From Arcobacter venerupis (lineage in GTDB: Bacteria; Campylobacterota; Campylobacteria; Campylobacterales; Arcobacteraceae), in the NCBI RefSeq assembly GCF_013201665.1, contig NZ_CP053840.1, forward strand, positions 310,001 through 374,000: a stretch of DNA of 64,000 nucleotides, written 5' to 3'. The notes beneath the pieces are model-generated. The model was given only the letters and a program-made list of their open reading frames with translations. It made no database searches and was not told where the DNA came from. Positions 18,138 to 29,755 of the stretch are shown piece by piece. Numbering within the stretch: the first letter of the stretch is position 1; each line of letters starts with the position of its first letter. Made by a program: the position numbers and the translations under genes.

Positions 18138-18165
18138 AAAGATTAATTTAAAAAAATTAATCTTT
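18138..18165. terminator. Bidirectional terminator between aas and glnD
   Basis: AAAGATTAATTT and its complement are separated by AAAA and followed by TTCTT. It lies between convergent genes and overlaps the glnD stop at 18157-18159. Confidence 0.7.
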
Positions 18166-20697
18166 TTCTTCATTGACACAAATCAAATCTAAAACTTCTT
18201 CTTGTTTTGAACAGAAATTGCCATTTTTTTCTATTAATATTAAATCCCTTGCATAACCATTTAATGTATGAAGTTTTGCACTTTCTATATCTAAGTTAAA
18301 ATCATCAAAAATTCTAGCAATATATGCAAATAAACCTTTTTGATCTTTTGCTATGAGTTGCATAGAAGCTAAATATGAAGAGTGGTTGCAATCAATTTTT
18401 ATACCATCTCTATTTATAATTGGAGTTTTTGTAATGGTTGTTTTACTCATATCAAAAGAGTCTTTTATTATCTCTTCTATAAAAAATAAATCTTCTGTAT
18501 CAATCTTTTCTGAAAAAGATATATCAAAAGCTTTTTTATTGTCATAAAGTTTAAAAATATTCATAGAAGCAATATTTAAAAACTCCAATTTTCCTAGTAA
18601 ATATCCTAAATTTAAAGGTGATTTTCTTATTATTCTTATTGTTAATTGTGAATCATTTATTATTTTATAAATATATGTATCTACATCTTTTGCTTTTATT
18701 GCAATATCCAAAATATCTTCAGCTTTTAATCTTAAGAAAATTTGATTAGAAGCTATGTACATGATTTTCTTTTGTAGTACAACTGGTAATTCTTTATATT
18801 TATCAAGTTTTTTAATTGCATTTTGTTTTGCAATTCTTCTTTTACTTTCATTTAAAAAATCTTCATTTTCAAAAGCAGGAAGTGACTGAAGATAAAGCTG
18901 TTTTAAAAGTGATTCTGTTGAGCTGTTAAAAATATTTTTACCAACAGCTGAAATATCGCTATATGTAATAGCATATAGAAGTTTTAATGCCTCTTTTGTT
19001 TTAATTAAACCAGTAAAATTTAAAATAGTTTTTTCAGAATATATATCTTCATGGGTTGCCATATAAGACATCATATTATGATACCTTACAAGTCTTGCTC
19101 CTAGTTTTATAAACTCTTCACTAAAATCAAATGATTTCATCATACTTTTAAATAATTTCTCTCCAAGTATATGATGATCATCTGTTCTTCCTTTCCCAAT
19201 ATCATGGAAAAAAGAGACTAATCTAACCAGTATTTTTTGTTCACTTGTTAATTCTTCAAATATTGATTTTATATATTCATTTTCAATATTTTGAGAAAAT
19301 TTCAAAGTTTTTAAAGAGTGAATATCAACAGGATGTGTATGATAACCATCAAATTGAGGTTGATCAATGATTTTTTTTGTACTTGGAAGTACTGCTTGAA
19401 ATAAACCTGCATTATAAATTAATTTCATCAAAGGATATAAATTTGGTTTACATAAAATTGTTTTAATATTTTTCTTTAACTCTTTTGTTTGTACATTTGG
19501 AAGTTTTACTTTACTTGCATAATAAATATAAGATCTATCAAATCTTTCAACATTTAAAGGAAGCTCAATTAGCTCTTTTAATAATGAATTTAAAGTTTGC
19601 TCTTTTCTATGGAATGAACAATATAAAGTATTATCTAAAATATAAAGATTTTTTTTGAATCTTAGTTTTTTTAGTTTTATTATATTTGTTGCATCAAAAA
19701 GAGTTTCTCTAGTAAACTTTTTAACCATAGTTGCCGTGAAATTATGAATAATATGTAAACAAGATAAAATCTTAGACATACATTGTCTATCTTTTGTATA
19801 TCTTGGTTTATTTTTAAATCCAAGTTTTAAACTTAAATCAGGCAAAACATCAAGGGTTACTTGGTCTAGTTTTTTTCTTGCAATATTATGTAAAGCATTT
19901 CTTACTTGAAATATAAACTCTAAAGCTTGTCTATATTTTTTATATTCATCTTCTGTATATTGAATACCAATTAACTCTTTTGTATTTGTAGCACCATACA
20001 AAATATTTGCCATCCAATACATCATATTTGATTCTCTAATTCCACCATAACCATCTTTGATATTTGGCTCCATTGTTAGTGGATATTTTAAAAGTCTTTG
20101 TTTATGTTCTTCTAATTTGTCTAATATAAAACCTTTTTGATTTGTTTTTCTAATTTTACTTAAAACATTCTCATATCCATACCATAAGATTTTAGAACCG
20201 TAAATTAATCTTGATTCTAAAATAGAACTTTTTATAGTAATATCTTCTTTTACAGCTTCACTTACTTCTTTTAATTCATGAACTCTTGAACCTAATTTCA
20301 ATCCACAATCCCAAGCTAAAGTTATAAACTCTTCCATAATTGCTTTTAAATTATAACCTTTGATATTTTCATATAAAATCATAATATCAATATCTGAATA
20401 GATACAAAGTTGTTCTCTTCCATAAGATCCAAGTGCAATTAAACTAATAGGAATTGATGTACTCATGGGTTGATGAGAAGCGAAATTTTTTCGTAAAATA
20501 TACTTGTAAAGTAAAATTAAAAATTTATCAGTATGTTTTGTATGTTTTATAAAAAAATCTTTTCCACCTGTAGTTTCAACAGTGGTATCAATTGAGTCTA
20601 AATAATTTTTATAATAAGTTTTGAAAACTTTTGAAATTTGAAAATCAGTAGCGTTATTTGAGATTAACTCTTCAATTTGTATATTTAAATCAATCAT
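18157..20697 (-). CDS. glnD: [Protein-PII] uridylyltransferase / uridylyl-removing enzyme
   Basis: The 846-residue length is normal for GlnD. The nucleotidyltransferase motif GSYGREQLCIYSDIDIMI lies near residue 95. The HD phosphohydrolase motif FHDIGKGRTDDHH lies near 498-510, and there are C-terminal ACT repeats (for example LIAKDQKGLFAYIARIF). It uridylylates PII at low glutamine and removes UMP at high glutamine. Two PII genes with the target Tyr are encoded at 27732 and 29417. The start overlaps the preceding regulator gene by 4 bases, so the two are translationally coupled. Confidence 0.95.
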   Translation of the reverse strand: MIDLNIQIEELISNNATDFQISKVFKTYYKNYLDSIDTTVETTGGKDFFIKHTKHTDKFLILLYKYILRKNFASHQPMSTSIPISLIALGSYGREQLCIYSDIDIMILYENIKGYNLKAIMEEFITLAWDCGLKLGSRVHELKEVSEAVKEDITIKSSILESRLIYGSKILWYGYENVLSKIRKTNQKGFILDKLEEHKQRLLKYPLTMEPNIKDGYGGIRESNMMYWMANILYGATNTKELIGIQYTEDEYKKYRQALEFIFQVRNALHNIARKKLDQVTLDVLPDLSLKLGFKNKPRYTKDRQCMSKILSCLHIIHNFTATMVKKFTRETLFDATNIIKLKKLRFKKNLYILDNTLYCSFHRKEQTLNSLLKELIELPLNVERFDRSYIYYASKVKLPNVQTKELKKNIKTILCKPNLYPLMKLIYNAGLFQAVLPSTKKIIDQPQFDGYHTHPVDIHSLKTLKFSQNIENEYIKSIFEELTSEQKILVRLVSFFHDIGKGRTDDHHILGEKLFKSMMKSFDFSEEFIKLGARLVRYHNMMSYMATHEDIYSEKTILNFTGLIKTKEALKLLYAITYSDISAVGKNIFNSSTESLLKQLYLQSLPAFENEDFLNESKRRIAKQNAIKKLDKYKELPVVLQKKIMYIASNQIFLRLKAEDILDIAIKAKDVDTYIYKIINDSQLTIRIIRKSPLNLGYLLGKLEFLNIASMNIFKLYDNKKAFDISFSEKIDTEDLFFIEEIIKDSFDMSKTTITKTPIINRDGIKIDCNHSSYLASMQLIAKDQKGLFAYIARIFDDFNLDIESAKLHTLNGYARDLILIEKNGNFCSKQEEVLDLICVNEEKD

Positions 20698-21446
20698 AAT
20701 AAATCTTTATAAATTTCCAATTTCTTTCGTAAAGTAATTCTATTTAATCCAAGATGTTTAGCAACTTGAACTTGGGATTTATATTTTTTTGTAGAAGCTT
20801 TTAGTAAAGGAACTTCAAAAATATATGATAAATCTTTATATGAGTTTTCTCCTCTTAAATTTTCACTTAGGTATTTTTCTAAGAACATTAAGATTTCATG
20901 TTCTCCAATTGTTTCAAAAAGATATGAGAAGTAGATGGATTTTCTTAGGCTATGGGTATTATTTGAAATGTTAACTATAAGTTTTGAAGAGGGAATTTTT
21001 GGTAAATCTAAAATAGAACTGGCTTCTTGCGAAAACTTGTTTACTAAAGCTTTGGTATCTTCTTCTCTTTTATTTAGGTTGGGTATTTCAAGATTAATCG
21101 AAAAAATATCTTTTAACTTTTGATTAAGATTTTCTGTATTTGAAATTGCTATTACTCTAATATTGTTATCGTCTAACCACTTTAGAAACAAATCAATATT
21201 AGTAATTTCATTTATTTTATCAATAATAATAGCTTCATTTTGTAAAAGAAGAATATCATCATTAATATCTTTTTGTAAAATTTTAGCTTCATAAATATCA
21301 GAATTAGGCAATATATATTTTGCTAGGGATTTTTTCCCCGTGCCAGCGTTACCTAAAATAAGTGCATTAACTTGAACAGCTTGTAAAAGTTTAGCTGAAT
21401 TTAGTATTTCTTTTGAAATTCCATCTTCTGCAATAAAATCTTGCAT
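20694..21446 (-). CDS. Reduced NtrC-like regulator: AAA+ remnant plus Fis-type HTH
   Basis: The 250-residue protein has no receiver domain. Walker A is GNAGTGKKSLAKYI (residues about 33-45), and a degenerate Walker B reads AIIIDKINEI (about 72-81). Only about 38 residues separate them, against about 66 in NtrC, so the sigma-54 contact loop GAFTGA is missing. IPNLNKREED aligns with the LPPLRERREDI segment of enhancer-binding proteins. The C-terminus is a Fis-type helix-turn-helix (VQVAKHLGLNRITLRKKLEIY). AGAGG precedes ATG. It is co-transcribed with glnD and is the best candidate to bind the 17-bp palindromes of this region; that link is inference. Confidence 0.8.
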   Translation of the reverse strand: MQDFIAEDGISKEILNSAKLLQAVQVNALILGNAGTGKKSLAKYILPNSDIYEAKILQKDINDDILLLQNEAIIIDKINEITNIDLFLKWLDDNNIRVIAISNTENLNQKLKDIFSINLEIPNLNKREEDTKALVNKFSQEASSILDLPKIPSSKLIVNISNNTHSLRKSIYFSYLFETIGEHEILMFLEKYLSENLRGENSYKDLSYIFEVPLLKASTKKYKSQVQVAKHLGLNRITLRKKLEIYKDLL

Positions 21447-21493: not shown

Positions 21494-21499
21494 ATTATA
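21494..21499 (-). promoter_or_regulatory. -10 element of the regulator-glnD operon
   Basis: TATAAT on the reverse strand, preceded by TACAG, would give a leader of about 40 bases to the ATG at 21446. It lies 41.5 bp from the centre of the palindrome at 21530-21546. Confidence 0.5.
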
Positions 21500-21529: not shown

Positions 21530-21546
21530 TGTATATTAAATAGACA
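21530..21546. promoter_or_regulatory. TGT-N11-ACA element upstream of regulator-glnD
   Basis: TGTATATTAAATAGACA is a 17-bp imperfect palindrome in the divergent region between the regulator-glnD operon and the histidine kinase. It shares TGTATA and ACA with three other sites (24356, 26414, 28102), each centred about 42 bp from a TATAAT. It could act on either divergent gene; on the kinase side no good -10 stands at the same distance. Confidence 0.5.
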
Positions 21547-23419: not shown

Positions 23420-24292
23420 TTATTGAATGTGTTTGTCTTTTTTTGTTGAATAAAAAATAAAAACTGTTAAAGAAATAAGTATTAATGCAATACCAGCAAT
23501 TAAATAAAAGGCATTTATCATTTGGTCATAATCATTAATTGCAATTTTAAATACAACAATTAGGGCTTCTATTGAAAGAGCAATAATAATAGTTGTTAAG
23601 AATTTTGTTAGAATTTTTGTTTCTAATTTTGAATTCTTAGAATAGGATTTAAAAAATACTTCCTGTTCAAGTATAGTTTTTGCCAAGTCAAAAATTGCAA
23701 TACTCAATGTTAAGGCAATAATAGGCTTGAATATCATCTCTAAAGACAAATCATGTATAGAAAATAGATACGCAATAAAATCATATAATGAAAATATTAT
23801 AGTAATTAAAGCTAACACCATCATAGAAAAACCTGCAATTATATAAAATGCTTTTGTAATACTATGGAAAGGTTTATTTAGTTCTATTAGATTTAATTTT
23901 TGTAATAAAATATCAATTTGGAAATCTAAGAAAAATATTTCATCACCTTCTTTTATACTTACAGTTACACAATTACTACTTGTTGCACTACTAATATAAG
24001 GTGGTGAAAAAGCAATGTTAGATTCTTTAAAATGTAACTTTGATATTAAATGAGATCTATCTTTACCCATTGCATTTTCATCTATTTTATATTTATAAAA
24101 ATTATTTGATGTTTGAATTTTGGTATCTTTATTTACTATATAAATCAGCTCTAAATAAGGAAATATTTTATACAGTTGTTTGAAATCTATTTTCTTATGA
24201 TTTGATAAATCACCTGAATTCTTTAGACTCTCTTGCAAAAAGTATTCAATATCTTCTTGATGTTGTATATATGTTTCAAAAAACTCTTTCAT
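23420..24292 (-). CDS. PDC/cache-domain membrane protein of unknown function
   Basis: The 290-residue protein has a soluble first half (about 1-140) that resembles a PDC/cache sensor (IYIVNKDTKIQTSNNFY, then GKDRSHLI and AFSPPYISSATSSNCVTVSI). Four membrane segments follow, near 148-175, 187-210, 228-252 and 260-282. No helix or signal precedes the cache part. AFYIIAG (start of segment 1) recurs as AFYLIAG (segment 4), suggesting an internal duplication. There is no output domain. AGGAT precedes ATG, with a TATAAT and a TGT-N11-ACA site upstream. It probably senses a small ligand; the partner is unknown. Confidence 0.65.
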   Translation of the reverse strand: MKEFFETYIQHQEDIEYFLQESLKNSGDLSNHKKIDFKQLYKIFPYLELIYIVNKDTKIQTSNNFYKYKIDENAMGKDRSHLISKLHFKESNIAFSPPYISSATSSNCVTVSIKEGDEIFFLDFQIDILLQKLNLIELNKPFHSITKAFYIIAGFSMMVLALITIIFSLYDFIAYLFSIHDLSLEMIFKPIIALTLSIAIFDLAKTILEQEVFFKSYSKNSKLETKILTKFLTTIIIALSIEALIVVFKIAINDYDQMINAFYLIAGIALILISLTVFIFYSTKKDKHIQ

Positions 24293-24355: not shown

Positions 24356-24372
24356 TGTATATATTTCATACA
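24356..24372. promoter_or_regulatory. TGTAT-N7-ATACA element upstream of the PDC gene
   Basis: TGTATATATTTCATACA is a clean 17-bp palindrome, extended to C...G at 24355/24373. It is identical at 15 of 19 positions to the amt2 site at 28101-28119. It lies between the end of the ankyrin gene and the PDC promoter. Confidence 0.6.
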
Positions 24373-24386
24373 GTAAAAATACGATA

Positions 24387-26333
24387 CTATTTTTTGATAT
24401 TAAATTCTTTTTGCATATTTTCAGCTAATAATCTTAAATTTACGGAATCAATTTCACTATTTACATTTTTTGTAAGATTTACAATATTTGGATGAAATTT
24501 TTCAAGAAATTGCAACATTTTAGGATCTTTTTTTAAAGGATTATTAACTAATGCTCCAACATCAAGCATCTCAATAACTAAATCTTTTTTTCCCATAAAT
24601 GCTGCATAATTAATAGGTCTAACTCCGTACTTATCGGGAAGATTTACTAAATCTTTATTATAATGGTGAAGTAGTTTAAAGTATTTAGTTGTGTTTTTCC
24701 AAATACAAGTATGAATTATACTTCTTCCTTGTTTATCTGTGATAAAACAATCTGCTCTCAGTTCTAAAAGAAGCCTAATTGTATATTCACACTTTTCACC
24801 AACAGCAACATGAAGAGCAGTTAATCCTTCATTGTTTTTTGCATTTACATCGACACCAGCATTTACAAGACTTTTTATCGTATTTAAATAAAGTTTTTTA
24901 TCTTTGATTAAATTTTTGTTGTTATAGTCCATTAATTTAAAAATGATGTTATTACCATCTTTATCTCTTTGGTTCAAATTAATATTTTTTGTTCTTAATA
25001 ATTTAAATAATTTAAAATTAAAATGAACAATAGAATCAAAAAATAATGGCTCACCTTTTGAATTTAATTTATTTATATCGACACTATAATTTCTTAAAAT
25101 ATTTTCCAAAACATTAGCGTATTCAGCATTTTCATTTAGTAATATTTCATATTCAAAGTCTAAAGGTTTTCTATTTTCTGAATATAAAATTATATCAATT
25201 AATATTTCAATGATTGTTTTTCCTGATGTATTTTCTAAATCGGGATTTGCACCTTTTTCTAAATATAATTTGATTAAATCACTATTTCTTATACCATTTA
25301 ATACAAGAATTAATAAAACAGTATCTCCTTGATTATTTTGATGATTTAAATTTACTTTACAATCTTCTAGGAAACTATTTATTAAATCTCTATCTTCACT
25401 TCTTGTAACTAAGAAAAATGCATTTTCATTGTTATTATCAAGTGCATCAACATTTACACCTAAGTGAATTAACTCTTTTATCATTTCTAAGTGAGCTGAT
25501 TTTAATTCAGTATTATCTTTTGGTGTATTTAAAAAGTAGTTAATTGATTCCATTAAAAGAGTTTTATTTTCTGCACTTCTACTATTAATATCACAACCTA
25601 AATCCACAGCTTTGTGTATAATACTAATATTATTTATACCTTTTGAAATGGCATAAAATAAGAAGTTTTTTCCATTTTTATCAAGAATTGTTGGGTTTGC
25701 ACCTAATTCCATAAGTAATAGCGCTAAATCATTGTTTTTTAAAACAATTTCTTTATGAAGGATTGTATTTCCAGCTAAATTAATTTGATTAATATTAACT
25801 TCTTTTAATGAACCAATTTTTTTTATAATTTCTATATTTCCATTTGCAACAGCATCAAAGATTAGATTATTTCCATGAATATCACAGTTAGCTAAAGCCT
25901 TTGTTACTTGTAATAAATAAGTAACAATTCGATTATTTGCACTAATTACTGCATCTTGAAGTGCAGTTCTATTATGAATGTTTAAATGATTTATATCAAT
26001 TTTATTATCAATTAATGTTTGTAATATTGCACTACTTTTTGAGTGAATTGCATAAAATATAGCAGTTTCTTTTTGTGAATTTTCTGCTTCAGCATTGATT
26101 CCATTTGATATAAGCCAAATTACAGATTGAAATAAATCTTTTTTACAACAATAATGAAGAATTAATTCGTCATTAAAATGAAGATCATTTAAATTTAAAT
26201 CTAGCTCACGATAGATTTTATTCAATTTCTCATTGTTCATATTTGGATTTAATAATTCTTTTAAAAAATCTTCTTCTGTAGTTTTTGACTTATTTAAGAG
26301 CCTTTTGAACATTTTATTAACCAGTACTTTCAT
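24387..26333 (-). CDS. Large ankyrin-repeat protein
   Basis: The 648-residue protein is built almost entirely of ankyrin repeats, each about 33-36 residues. Recurrent TALHVAV/TILHKEI/TALQDAV helices and N-x-D/G-N turns are visible from about residue 50 to 620 (for example NIHNRTALQDAVISANNRIV and NNEGLTALHVAVGEKCEYTI). There is no signal peptide, membrane segment or enzymatic domain, so it is a cytoplasmic protein-binding scaffold. It is divergent from amt1 and upstream of the PDC gene. Partner and function are unknown. Ankyrin proteins near ammonium transport genes invite a search for a PII/Amt link, which is speculation. Confidence 0.85.
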   Translation of the reverse strand: MKVLVNKMFKRLLNKSKTTEEDFLKELLNPNMNNEKLNKIYRELDLNLNDLHFNDELILHYCCKKDLFQSVIWLISNGINAEAENSQKETAIFYAIHSKSSAILQTLIDNKIDINHLNIHNRTALQDAVISANNRIVTYLLQVTKALANCDIHGNNLIFDAVANGNIEIIKKIGSLKEVNINQINLAGNTILHKEIVLKNNDLALLLMELGANPTILDKNGKNFLFYAISKGINNISIIHKAVDLGCDINSRSAENKTLLMESINYFLNTPKDNTELKSAHLEMIKELIHLGVNVDALDNNNENAFFLVTRSEDRDLINSFLEDCKVNLNHQNNQGDTVLLILVLNGIRNSDLIKLYLEKGANPDLENTSGKTIIEILIDIILYSENRKPLDFEYEILLNENAEYANVLENILRNYSVDINKLNSKGEPLFFDSIVHFNFKLFKLLRTKNINLNQRDKDGNNIIFKLMDYNNKNLIKDKKLYLNTIKSLVNAGVDVNAKNNEGLTALHVAVGEKCEYTIRLLLELRADCFITDKQGRSIIHTCIWKNTTKYFKLLHHYNKDLVNLPDKYGVRPINYAAFMGKKDLVIEMLDVGALVNNPLKKDPKMLQFLEKFHPNIVNLTKNVNSEIDSVNLRLLAENMQKEFNIKK

Positions 26334-26413: not shown

Positions 26414-26430
26414 TGTATATAAAATGAACA
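26414..26430. promoter_or_regulatory. TGT-N11-ACA element upstream of amt1
   Basis: TGTATATAAAATGAACA keeps the TGTATA and ACA ends of the shared 17-bp motif, with a weak right arm. Its centre is 42.5 bp from the centre of TATAAT at 26462-26467. That is the same spacing as at the PDC and amt2 promoters. Confidence 0.45.
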
Positions 26431-26503: not shown

Positions 26504-27718
26504 ATGGAAAATTTTACTGACGTAAAATATATTTTAGATGGTTTTCTGTTTTTATTTGCAGGAATCCTTGTAATGTGGATGGCAGCTGGATTTGCTATGC
26601 TTGAATCTGGTTTAACAAGAACAAAAAATACAGCAACAGTTTTAACTAAAAATATTGCGTTGTTTTCAATCTCTTGCATTGTGTTCTATTTTGTAGGATA
26701 CAACTTTATGTATGGTGAAGGAAATGCAATAATTGGAAGTGGAGCTATGTTATCTGGAAGAACAAGTGAAGCTTTAGGTTATCCTGTAATGGCTGACTTC
26801 TTTTTTCAAGTTGTGTTTGTTGCAACTGCTGCTTCTGTTATTTCAGGAACAATTGCAGAAAGAATGAAATTGTGGCCATTTCTAATTTTTACAGCTGTAT
26901 TATCGGGTGTTATCTATCCAATCCAAGGACATTGGTCATGGGGAGGTTCAGAATTAGGTGGACTAATTACAGGATTCTCTGATTTTGCTGGTTCAACTGT
27001 TGTTCACTCTGTTGGTGGATGGGCTGCGTTGGCAGGTGTTTTAATATTAGGTGCAAGAAAAGGTAAATTTGGGAAAGATGGTCAAGTAAGACCAATTCCA
27101 GGGTCAAACCTTTCTATGGCAACACTTGGAACATTCATTTTATGGATGGGATGGTTTGGATTTAATGGTGGGAGTCAATTAGCTCTTGGTTCAAAAGAAG
27201 ATATTGATGGAATCGCTTCTGTTATTGCAAGTACAAATATGGCTGCTTGTATAGGTGGTATTGTAGCAGCTATTTTAACTCAACTTATTTATAAAAAAGT
27301 TGATTTAACAATGGTTTTAAATGGTACATTAGCAGGGCTTGTTTCTTGTACAGCAGGACCAGATTTAGGAATTAATGTAGCTTTAATAGAAGGTGCAATT
27401 GGTGGAGCATTAGTTGTATTTGCTGTTCCTTTCTTTGATAAAATTAGAATTGATGACCCCGTTGGTGCTTTATCTGTTCACTTAGTTGCAGGTATTTGGG
27501 GAACATTAGCTGTTGGTATCTTTAATCCTGAAGTTACACTTATAACTCAAGTAAAAGGTATTGTTGTAGTTGGTGCATTTGTATTCATATCGTCTTTCAT
27601 TGTATGGAAAATACTAGATTTAATAATGGGATTAAGAGTTGATGAGGAGACAGAAGTTAATGGTCTTGATATTCACGAAACAGGACTTGAAGCATATCCT
27701 GAATTTAAAAGAGCATAG
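26504..27718 (+). CDS. amtB: Ammonium transporter Amt (first copy)
   Basis: The 404-residue protein has about eleven membrane helices. The signature AGFAMLESGLTRTKN lies near 28-42. The pore histidines are in STVVHSVGGWAALAG near 165-180 and DPVGALSVHLVAGIWGTLA near 320. The outer Phe-gate region FFFQVVFVATAASVISG is intact. It conducts NH4+/NH3 and should be blocked by non-uridylylated PII. AAAGGAGTC precedes ATG. The PII gene follows 13 bases later, forming the usual amtB-glnK unit in reversed order. Confidence 0.94.
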   Translation: MENFTDVKYILDGFLFLFAGILVMWMAAGFAMLESGLTRTKNTATVLTKNIALFSISCIVFYFVGYNFMYGEGNAIIGSGAMLSGRTSEALGYPVMADFFFQVVFVATAASVISGTIAERMKLWPFLIFTAVLSGVIYPIQGHWSWGGSELGGLITGFSDFAGSTVVHSVGGWAALAGVLILGARKGKFGKDGQVRPIPGSNLSMATLGTFILWMGWFGFNGGSQLALGSKEDIDGIASVIASTNMAACIGGIVAAILTQLIYKKVDLTMVLNGTLAGLVSCTAGPDLGINVALIEGAIGGALVVFAVPFFDKIRIDDPVGALSVHLVAGIWGTLAVGIFNPEVTLITQVKGIVVVGAFVFISSFIVWKILDLIMGLRVDEETEVNGLDIHETGLEAYPEFKRA

Positions 27719-27722
27719 TTAA

Positions 27723-28070
<348 letters not shown>

Positions 28071-28101: not shown

Positions 28102-28118
28102 TGTATAAATTTTATACA
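28102..28118. promoter_or_regulatory. TGTAT-N7-ATACA element upstream of amt2
   Basis: TGTATAAATTTTATACA lies inside the longer palindrome ATTGTATA-AATTT-TATACAAT (28100-28120). Its centre is 42.5 bp upstream of the centre of TATAAT at 28150-28155. It is the most symmetrical of the four related sites in this region. Confidence 0.65.
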
Positions 28119-28149: not shown

Positions 28150-28155
28150 TATAAT
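28150..28155 (+). promoter_or_regulatory. -10 element of amt2-glnK2-pyrC
   Basis: A perfect TATAAT would give a leader of about 17 bases containing AAAGGAT before the ATG at 28179. Confidence 0.5.
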
Positions 28156-28178: not shown

Positions 28179-29363
28179 ATGGGTATAGAATCTATTTCTT
28201 ACATTATTAACACTTTGTATGCAATTTTTTCGATGACATTGATAATTTTTATGGTACCTGGCTTTGCAATGCTGGAAGCTGGGATTGTTAGAACAAAAAA
28301 TGTTACATCGGTATTAACAATAAATACTCTTATTTACGCAGTTGCATCTTTATCATTTTTATTGTTTGGTTATTCTTTGGCTTTTGGAGAATTTGGAAGC
28401 GAAACTATGAGTAAATGGGCTGCATTTTTATTTCAAATGGCATTTGTTGGAAAAGTAGTAAATATTATGAGTGGTGGAGTTAGTGAAAGAGCTAAAATAA
28501 TACCACTTACTTTATTTACAATATTAATGGCATCAATTCTTTATCCCTTAGTTGTTAATGTTACTTGGGGAATGAATTTTCTTAAAGGTACAATTTTAGA
28601 ATTATCAATGTATGATTTAGCAGGTTCAACAGTTATTCATAGTACTGGTGGATGGGCTTTATTAGCAGCAATTTTGATCATTGGGGCAAGAAAGGGAAGA
28701 TATACAAAAGAAGGTGGTGTGAGAGTATTCCCTGCTTCAAATATTCCCCTTGTAACTTTAGGTGCATTTTTATTATGGATAGGTTGGTTTGGATTTAATG
28801 GTGGAAGTGTAGGTTCAATTGCTAGTAAAGAAAATGCAGATTTAGTTGCACTAACAATTATGAATACAAACACAGCTGGATTAAGTGGTGCTATAATGGT
28901 TGCAATTATAATGCAAATCGTTTATAAAAAACTAGACTTAACAATGATTTTAAATGGTGCTTTAGGTGGATTAGTTGCAATCACGGCAGGACCAAATTTA
29001 TATGATATTTATATGCCAATATTTATTGGTGCATTTGGTGGTTGTTTAGTTGTTTTTGGAGTATCATTTTTTGATAAAGTGAAAATTGATGATCCTGTTG
29101 GTGCATTATCTGTACACCTTTTAAATGGTATATGGGGAACAATAGCTGTTGGTATTTTTGCATCTAATGATAAAATTACATTATTAGGACAATTAAAAGG
29201 TATATTACTTATTGGTTTATTTGCTTTTATTAGTTCATTTATAGTTTTATATATAATAAATAAAATAATGCCATTAAGAGCTGGAAATGATGAAGAAATG
29301 CAAGGATTAGATGTTGAAGAGTGTGGTATTGAAGCTTACCCTGAATTCAAACGAGCATTCTAA
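28179..29363 (+). CDS. amtB: Ammonium transporter Amt (second, diverged copy)
   Basis: This 394-residue Amt protein is colinear with the first copy, with pore histidines in STVIHSTGGWALLAA and DPVGALSVHLLNGIWGTIA. It differs around helix 3: the loop before it is about 15 residues shorter, and the usual ATAAS after the gate Phe is replaced by GKVVN, placing Lys-92 in or at the membrane helix. This may change conductance or make it more sensor-like; that is inference. Its own promoter and a TGT-N11-ACA site lie upstream. Confidence 0.9.
   Translation: MGIESISYIINTLYAIFSMTLIIFMVPGFAMLEAGIVRTKNVTSVLTINTLIYAVASLSFLLFGYSLAFGEFGSETMSKWAAFLFQMAFVGKVVNIMSGGVSERAKIIPLTLFTILMASILYPLVVNVTWGMNFLKGTILELSMYDLAGSTVIHSTGGWALLAAILIIGARKGRYTKEGGVRVFPASNIPLVTLGAFLLWIGWFGFNGGSVGSIASKENADLVALTIMNTNTAGLSGAIMVAIIMQIVYKKLDLTMILNGALGGLVAITAGPNLYDIYMPIFIGAFGGCLVVFGVSFFDKVKIDDPVGALSVHLLNGIWGTIAVGIFASNDKITLLGQLKGILLIGLFAFISSFIVLYIINKIMPLRAGNDEEMQGLDVEECGIEAYPEFKRAF

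Positions 29364-29395: not shown

Positions 29396-29754
<359 letters not shown>

Positions 29755-29755
<1 letters not shown>

Follow-up and report, generated by a model that had tools for sequence, protein, structure and literature searches.

In the stretch of 64,000 nucleotides of the Arcobacter venerupis genome analysed here (the window; positions refer to it unless the host contig C1 is named), the gene of the P-II uridylyltransferase GlnD (18157..20697, minus strand) overlaps by 4 bp with a reading frame that resembles NtrC deprived of its receiver and of its sigma-54 loop. What is the origin of this protein, and how could it still control genes? We consider it probable that this 'stripped NtrC', called A1 in the following, is the DNA-binding half of a phosphorelay-free NtrB-NtrC version which acts at sigma-70 promoters and works with GlnD and P-II. 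Its companion would be an NtrB-like protein, C7, encoded elsewhere in the genome.

The A1 gene was called as an open reading frame on the minus strand (20694..21446, ATG at 21446) and encodes 250 amino acids. Pfam, the alignment of homologues and the predicted structure delimit a P-loop AAA+ core (about residues 1-190) and a Fis-type helix-turn-helix (about 221-246). The protein contains the P-loop GNAGTGKKS, the degenerate Walker B motif IIIDKI, the segment IPNLNKREED and the Fis-type helix-turn-helix. Pfam recognises the first 52 residues of Sigma54_activat together with HTH_50/HTH_8 and nothing more; in particular, it finds no receiver domain with a phosphorylatable Asp, and the AAA+ core forms the start of the protein. 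The best NCBIfam match is ntrC (TIGR01818) with 32.6 bits, compared to a cut-off of 558.6. Among 71 A1 homologues the GAFTGA loop is absent throughout, and all family members inspected at full length are short and devoid of it. The Walker A motif is well preserved (G32 and G37 in 71/71, K38 in 68/71). At the Walker B positions an Asp is found at 76 in 14 and a Glu at 77 in only 2 of the 71 sequences, and no conserved Arg that could serve as arginine finger occurs at positions 106-121. The core of the helix-turn-helix, NRxTLxKK, is invariant in the same set. An earlier sequence-only reading of this DNA had described the length of the frame, its overlap with glnD, the four motifs and the lack of receiver and GAFTGA, and in all these points we come to the same result.

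Profile and structure comparisons agree on the ancestry of A1. The structure model has a mean pLDDT of 76, with values of about 90-95 in the AAA+ core up to residue 130 and below 50 at the helix-turn-helix end. Foldseek returned AAA+ domains of sigma-54 activators as top matches (E about 1e-7), and the VIA comparison of the model with NtrC4 gave a Z score of 16.5 over 180 residues at 2.5 Å. The predicted fold is thus that of a sigma-54 activator and not an unrelated one, as the proposed kinship with NtrC had implied. HHalign aligned A1 with NtrC over 251 columns with a score of 172.6 and a probability of 99.6, the maximum for shuffled columns being 19. This alignment runs end to end through the AAA+ and DNA-binding parts of NtrC and includes the NtrC-type linker before the helix-turn-helix. 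Single-sequence comparisons yielded 85 for AtoC, 74 for ZraR and 74 for NifA. The C-terminal part alone scored up to 65 with NtrC, as against 25 with AtoC, 22 with ZraR and 12 with NifA. A1 is an NtrC-derived AAA+/Fis-HTH protein. FlgR was considered as parent as well and is unlikely: its alignments with the NtrC model end, in most cases, before the DNA-binding part.

The sequence-only reading had explained the stripping by a loss of rpoN in Arcobacter, after which an enhancer-binding protein turned into a conventional regulator of nitrogen genes. A profile built from 11 Arcobacteraceae members and run on 397 Campylobacteria genomes detected the A1 family in 166 of them and in 49 of the 68 sampled genera; with this conservation A1 is not a chance reading frame. 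Of the 166 carriers 119 possess rpoN. The host genome (3.21 Mb, one contig) likewise has a complete rpoN with all three Pfam domains (C1:43.2-44.4 kb), located in a nif island that also encodes, at about 15 kb, an activator similar to NifA. Genes near rpoN are presumably nifHDK, as judged by eye from the N-terminal ends of their products. The proposed cause consequently fails for the host as well as for the distribution of the family, whereas the proposed change into a conventional regulator of nitrogen genes is supported by the results given below. The same reading had taken an intact rpoN together with a canonical NtrC elsewhere in the genome as speaking against it; rpoN is there, and no protein of 130 class genomes exceeds the TIGR01818 cut-off for NtrC. 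Canonical NtrB, judged by the NF008293 cut-off, is likewise found in none of the 130.

A loss of RpoN, FlgRS and FliA in Arcobacter has been reported for the flagellar system (PMC9321776), and rpoN is missing from a good part of the A1-bearing Arcobacteraceae genomes. Both observations would suit a recent origin of A1 within Arcobacter, as the remnant of a sigma-54 activator falling into decay once rpoN had gone. The identical stripped form is present, however, in many families with rpoN, so that the stripping must be older than the Arcobacteraceae or unrelated to rpoN. We therefore hold a recent remnant to be highly improbable, and rpoN in the host and in the 119 carriers refutes Arcobacter-specific rpoN loss as the cause. 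The nitrogen regulon may have given up its sigma-54 dependence long ago, in the ancestor of the class.

Some observations were made in passing on the sigma-54 genes of the host. The nif island (C1:14.7-44.4 kb) comprises NifA, molybdate transport, the nifHDK-like genes and rpoN; in Arcobacteraceae rpoN seems to be tied to nif and not to flagella. The loop of the NifA encoded there reads GAFTDA, not GAFTGA. In addition, a 378-aa protein (C1:2386480-2386917; 1231-2367 of locus L009) unites two oddly paired domains, a match to the sigma-54 DNA-binding domain (E 2.9e-6) and, behind it, a GIY-YIG nuclease domain (E 7.7e-5).

Upstream of amt genes a 17-bp palindrome, TGTATA-N5-TATACA, recurs. All 41 amt upstream regions of A1-bearing Arcobacteraceae contain a site with a score of at least 10/12, 24 of them perfect; in A1-less relatives, for which there are only three regions, the scores are 9, 7 and 9.

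In the window the palindrome occurs three times with one mismatch or none, namely before amt2, A1 and a gene for a 290-aa membrane protein. The putative site before A1, TGTATATTAAATAGACA, has one mismatch (21530..21546) and is followed after 30 nt by the -10 element TATAAT of the A1-glnD promoter (21494..21499, minus strand); A1 may thus be autoregulated through it. A second putative site with one mismatch (24356..24372) precedes the gene of the 290-aa protein (23420-24292, minus strand), with TATAAT 31 nt downstream. This protein has no Pfam or NCBIfam match; judging from its upstream site with the well-placed -10 box, it may be an addition to the nitrogen regulon. The putative site before amt1 (26414..26430) has two mismatches and again TATAAT 31 nt downstream. 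The ammonium transporter gene amt1 (26504..27718, plus strand; open reading frame with homology to amt2) is followed by the P-II gene glnK1 (27732..28070, plus strand; open reading frame, P-II search). The putative site before amt2, TGTATAAATTTTATACA, is perfect (28102..28118, TATAAT at 28150-28155), and behind it lie the ammonium transporter gene amt2 (28179..29363, plus strand; open reading frame) and the second P-II gene, glnK2 (29411..29755, plus strand; open reading frame, P-II search). Divergent from amt1, the minus strand encodes a 648-aa ankyrin-repeat protein (24387-26333).

In 864 kb of the host genome the palindrome matches 14 times with at most one mismatch. This count by itself is unexceptional, as control palindromes match 7-68 times. 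Intergenic DNA makes up only 6.8% of the sequence but contains ten of the 14 sites, and at eight of these ten a -10 box lies 30-32 nt downstream, compared to 15.8% of random intergenic positions and 3/27 for 14 control palindromes. The putative targets behind the intergenic sites are A1, amt2, gdhA, urtA, ureD, qhpA, coding for a quinohemoprotein amine dehydrogenase, and a pair of genes for an amino-acid SBP and a GntR protein. Others stand before the 290-aa gene, a porin/prs pair and the gene of a dCache-CheW protein; three of the ten intergenic sites precede genes without an obvious nitrogen role. The case for the palindrome is therefore made by its intergenic placement, the spacing to the -10 box and the target genes, and not by the number of matches.

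The same spacing is found across species. In each of the 38 amt promoters the best-fitting -10 box follows the site at a distance of 31 or 32 nt (ties being decided in favour of 31), and in other lineages the distance is mostly 30-32 nt as well. A -24/-12 element was seen at none of the 38 amt promoters. The fixed distance of 31-32 nt places the centre of the site near -52 of a sigma-70 promoter. Such a position could also be used by a repressor, or in both ways: the Caulobacter NtrC, which lacks GAFTGA too, represses and activates sigma-70 genes (PMC10274813). On the other hand, a fixed spacing, a location upstream of -35 and -35 sequences that are poorly conserved at the amt promoters are typical of activators and not of an operator overlapping the promoter. 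We therefore regard a mainly repressing or dual role at these sites as unlikely and presume that A1 activates.

It remains to be asked whether A1 itself reads the palindrome. All 256 half-sites of the form TGNNNN were scored with no prior choice and compared with the residue at position 237 in the recognition helix of A1; for three regions, which come from the L209 and L212 genomes, another member of the genus supplied the residue. With Ile, Val, Ala, Thr or Met at this position TGTATA is found in 37 of 43 regions (background 2%) and TGATTA in none, whereas with Asn237 TGATTA is found in 15 of 22 regions (background 2.3%) and TGTATA in none. Even at 11/12, the half-site of the other group occurs in neither set (22 and 43 regions). 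On the tree there are at least two switches of residue 237 on the starred branches, and three in the simplest account. The locus L100, which has Asn237 and is nested among non-Asn rows, carries a TGATTA-like site, TGATTAAATTTTAGGCA, before its A1-C7 operon. No other result points as strongly as this covariation of residue and site to A1 as the reader of the palindromes, and we strongly infer direct DNA binding.

Another regulator, such as NifA or an unknown factor, could be the reader instead. The host has NifA, the upstream activating sequence of which is TGT-N10-ACA (PMC4999443) and resembles the palindrome. In the palindrome, however, TGT and ACA are separated by N11, no -24/-12 element follows, the palindrome occurs in rpoN-less genomes too (G314, G261, G031 and G036) and its half-site tracks residue 237 of A1. 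On the first three grounds we rejected NifA as reader, and any reader other than A1 appears quite improbable. No clear palindrome of either type was seen before A1-C7 in family f6, nor before amt in G116, G061 and one genome of family f5. Families f5 and f6 possess both A1 and C7, yet the regions seen (six loci) show neither form of the palindrome clearly, and their site may differ.

If A1 is the DNA-binding half, where does its signal come from? C7 is an NtrB-like protein of about 230 aa with a PAS-like N-terminus. Where NtrB has its dimerisation/histidine domain and ATP boxes, C7 continues with a stretch resembling NtrB around YDPSLPE and GERYRL. In the host it is encoded on the complementary strand (C1:1360375-1361055), 4 bp after rpoD and 1 Mb away from A1. 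HHalign of C7 with NtrB gave a score of 51.3 (P 2.4e-6), compared to a maximum of 23.2 in 100 column shuffles, 23.8 for AtoS and 17.5 for ZraS; by this comparison C7 is homologous to the catalytic region of NtrB. The H-, N- and G1-boxes are absent from all 49 C7 sequences but present in 9/9 NtrB. PAS matches were weak and limited to 4-5 of 15 C7 members, and a search of solved structures with C7 gave nothing convincing.

Among the 397 genomes the C7 profile matches exactly those that have A1 (166/166); the two lists were copied by hand for this comparison, and the tallies and the first unlisted genomes agree. The glnD set nearly coincides with them (161 genomes shared, 5 and 8 exceptions), and as the rows are related by descent, Fisher values for these co-occurrences overstate the independence. 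The presence of P-II alone does not predict A1. Seven relatives from the same genus have kept glnD and lack both A1 and C7; no A1 remnant is found upstream of their glnD, which is directly abutted by the ankyrin gene. Outside most Arcobacteraceae, A1 lies either in the order slyD-A1-fabD or directly before C7, then often with amt and glnK behind. In many genomes A1 and C7 are unlinked (slyD-A1-fabD and rpoD-C7), and in several families they are adjacent and overlap. Where they are separated, C7 mostly stands directly behind the sigma-70 gene rpoD, an arrangement conserved without obvious reason (C1:1360375-1362946; 7376-9947 of L148).

The unlinked genes, together with the P-loop that A1 has retained, would also fit a scheme without a partnership of A1 and C7, where each of them depends separately on GlnD and P-II and A1 alone senses a nucleotide or metabolite. 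Against this stand the identical distribution over 397 genomes, the overlapping neighbours in several families, the relatives that have glnD but are devoid of both, and the descent of the two proteins from a known partner pair. Separate action is therefore rather doubtful to us, and we prefer a partnership of A1 and C7. The target of P-II in E. coli is the catalytic region of NtrB, for which reason C7 is a candidate P-II relay. With this biochemistry and the gene neighbourhood as a guide, an input from C7 and P-II to A1 may be suggested, though weakly.

We propose the following mechanism. A1 is a descendant of NtrC from which the receiver, the loop that contacts sigma-54 and the parts needed for hydrolysis have disappeared; the P-loop fold that it has kept would serve for dimerisation and perhaps for nucleotide sensing. 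As a dimer it would bind the 17-bp palindrome, TGTATA-N5-TATACA in the host and TGATTA-N5-TAATCA in Asn237 lineages. The centre of this site would lie near -52, immediately before the -35 region, in the sigma-70 promoters of genes for nitrogen acquisition. Upon nitrogen shortage A1 most likely activates transcription by sigma-70 RNA polymerase, and the signal most likely passes from GlnD and P-II via C7. C7, a remnant of NtrB with a PAS-like domain and part of the surface of the catalytic domain, lacks the phosphorylatable histidine and would convey the P-II status to A1 by protein-protein contact and not by phosphotransfer. Contacts of C7 with P-II and with A1 and nucleotide binding by A1 are thus presumed, as is activation.

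In the literature searched, the coverage of which is incomplete, we found no description of A1, of C7 or of such a nitrogen regulator in Campylobacterota. If our proposal is true, it supplies the missing nitrogen regulator of this phylum together with its site, its targets and a probable signal route. A phosphorelay and an enhancer-binding machine would have been dismantled while their logic was kept, with GlnD and P-II as input and nitrogen genes as output, and the specificity residue and the site would change together. Nitrogen control could then be tested with a simple set of promoters in bacteria that rank among the main primary producers of vents and sulfidic sediments. We slightly favour the wider claim that a whole NtrB-NtrC system, with all phosphotransfer and sigma-54 parts gone from both partners, has survived across much of Campylobacterota as an activator pair that is gated by P-II, needs no phosphorylation and serves nitrogen promoters of the sigma-70 type.

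AAA+ regulators that have no functional GAFTGA loop and act at sigma-70 promoters are known, namely TyrR and those of the VpsR/VspR/FleQ type. These keep N-terminal sensory or receiver-like domains, whereas A1 begins at the AAA+ core; VspR is covered in PMC10274813. Also close are the NtrC proteins of Rhodobacter capsulatus and Caulobacter, GAFTGA-less regulators at sigma-70 promoters (PMC10274813), which share with A1 the deleted L1/GAFTGA loop and, as predicted for A1 from its sites, the control of nitrogen assimilation at sigma-70 promoters. They have, however, a receiver with the phosphorylated Asp needed for activation and a working histidine kinase NtrB, whereas A1 lacks the receiver, the Walker B glutamate and the arginine finger, and C7 lacks the histidine. 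FlgR belongs to the superfamily of A1 and occurs in the same organisms, but in most genomes its similarity to the NtrC model extends over receiver and AAA+ domain and not to the DNA-binding end, the reverse of A1. With regard to the canonical pair GlnL-GlnG (NtrB-NtrC) of E. coli, A1 covers the AAA+ and DNA-binding parts of NtrC with the linker, C7 matches NtrB from YDPSLPE to GERYRL, and both systems are linked to GlnD, P-II and Amt. Both have 17-bp palindromic sites of 6-5-6 layout with TG...CA ends, the glnA sites of E. coli being TGCACC-N5-GGTGCA-like. A1 and C7 differ from the E. coli pair in the half-site sequence and in having neither phosphotransfer parts nor sigma-54 contact; and while the canonical NtrC site is a remote enhancer, the A1 site is fixed beside a sigma-70 promoter.
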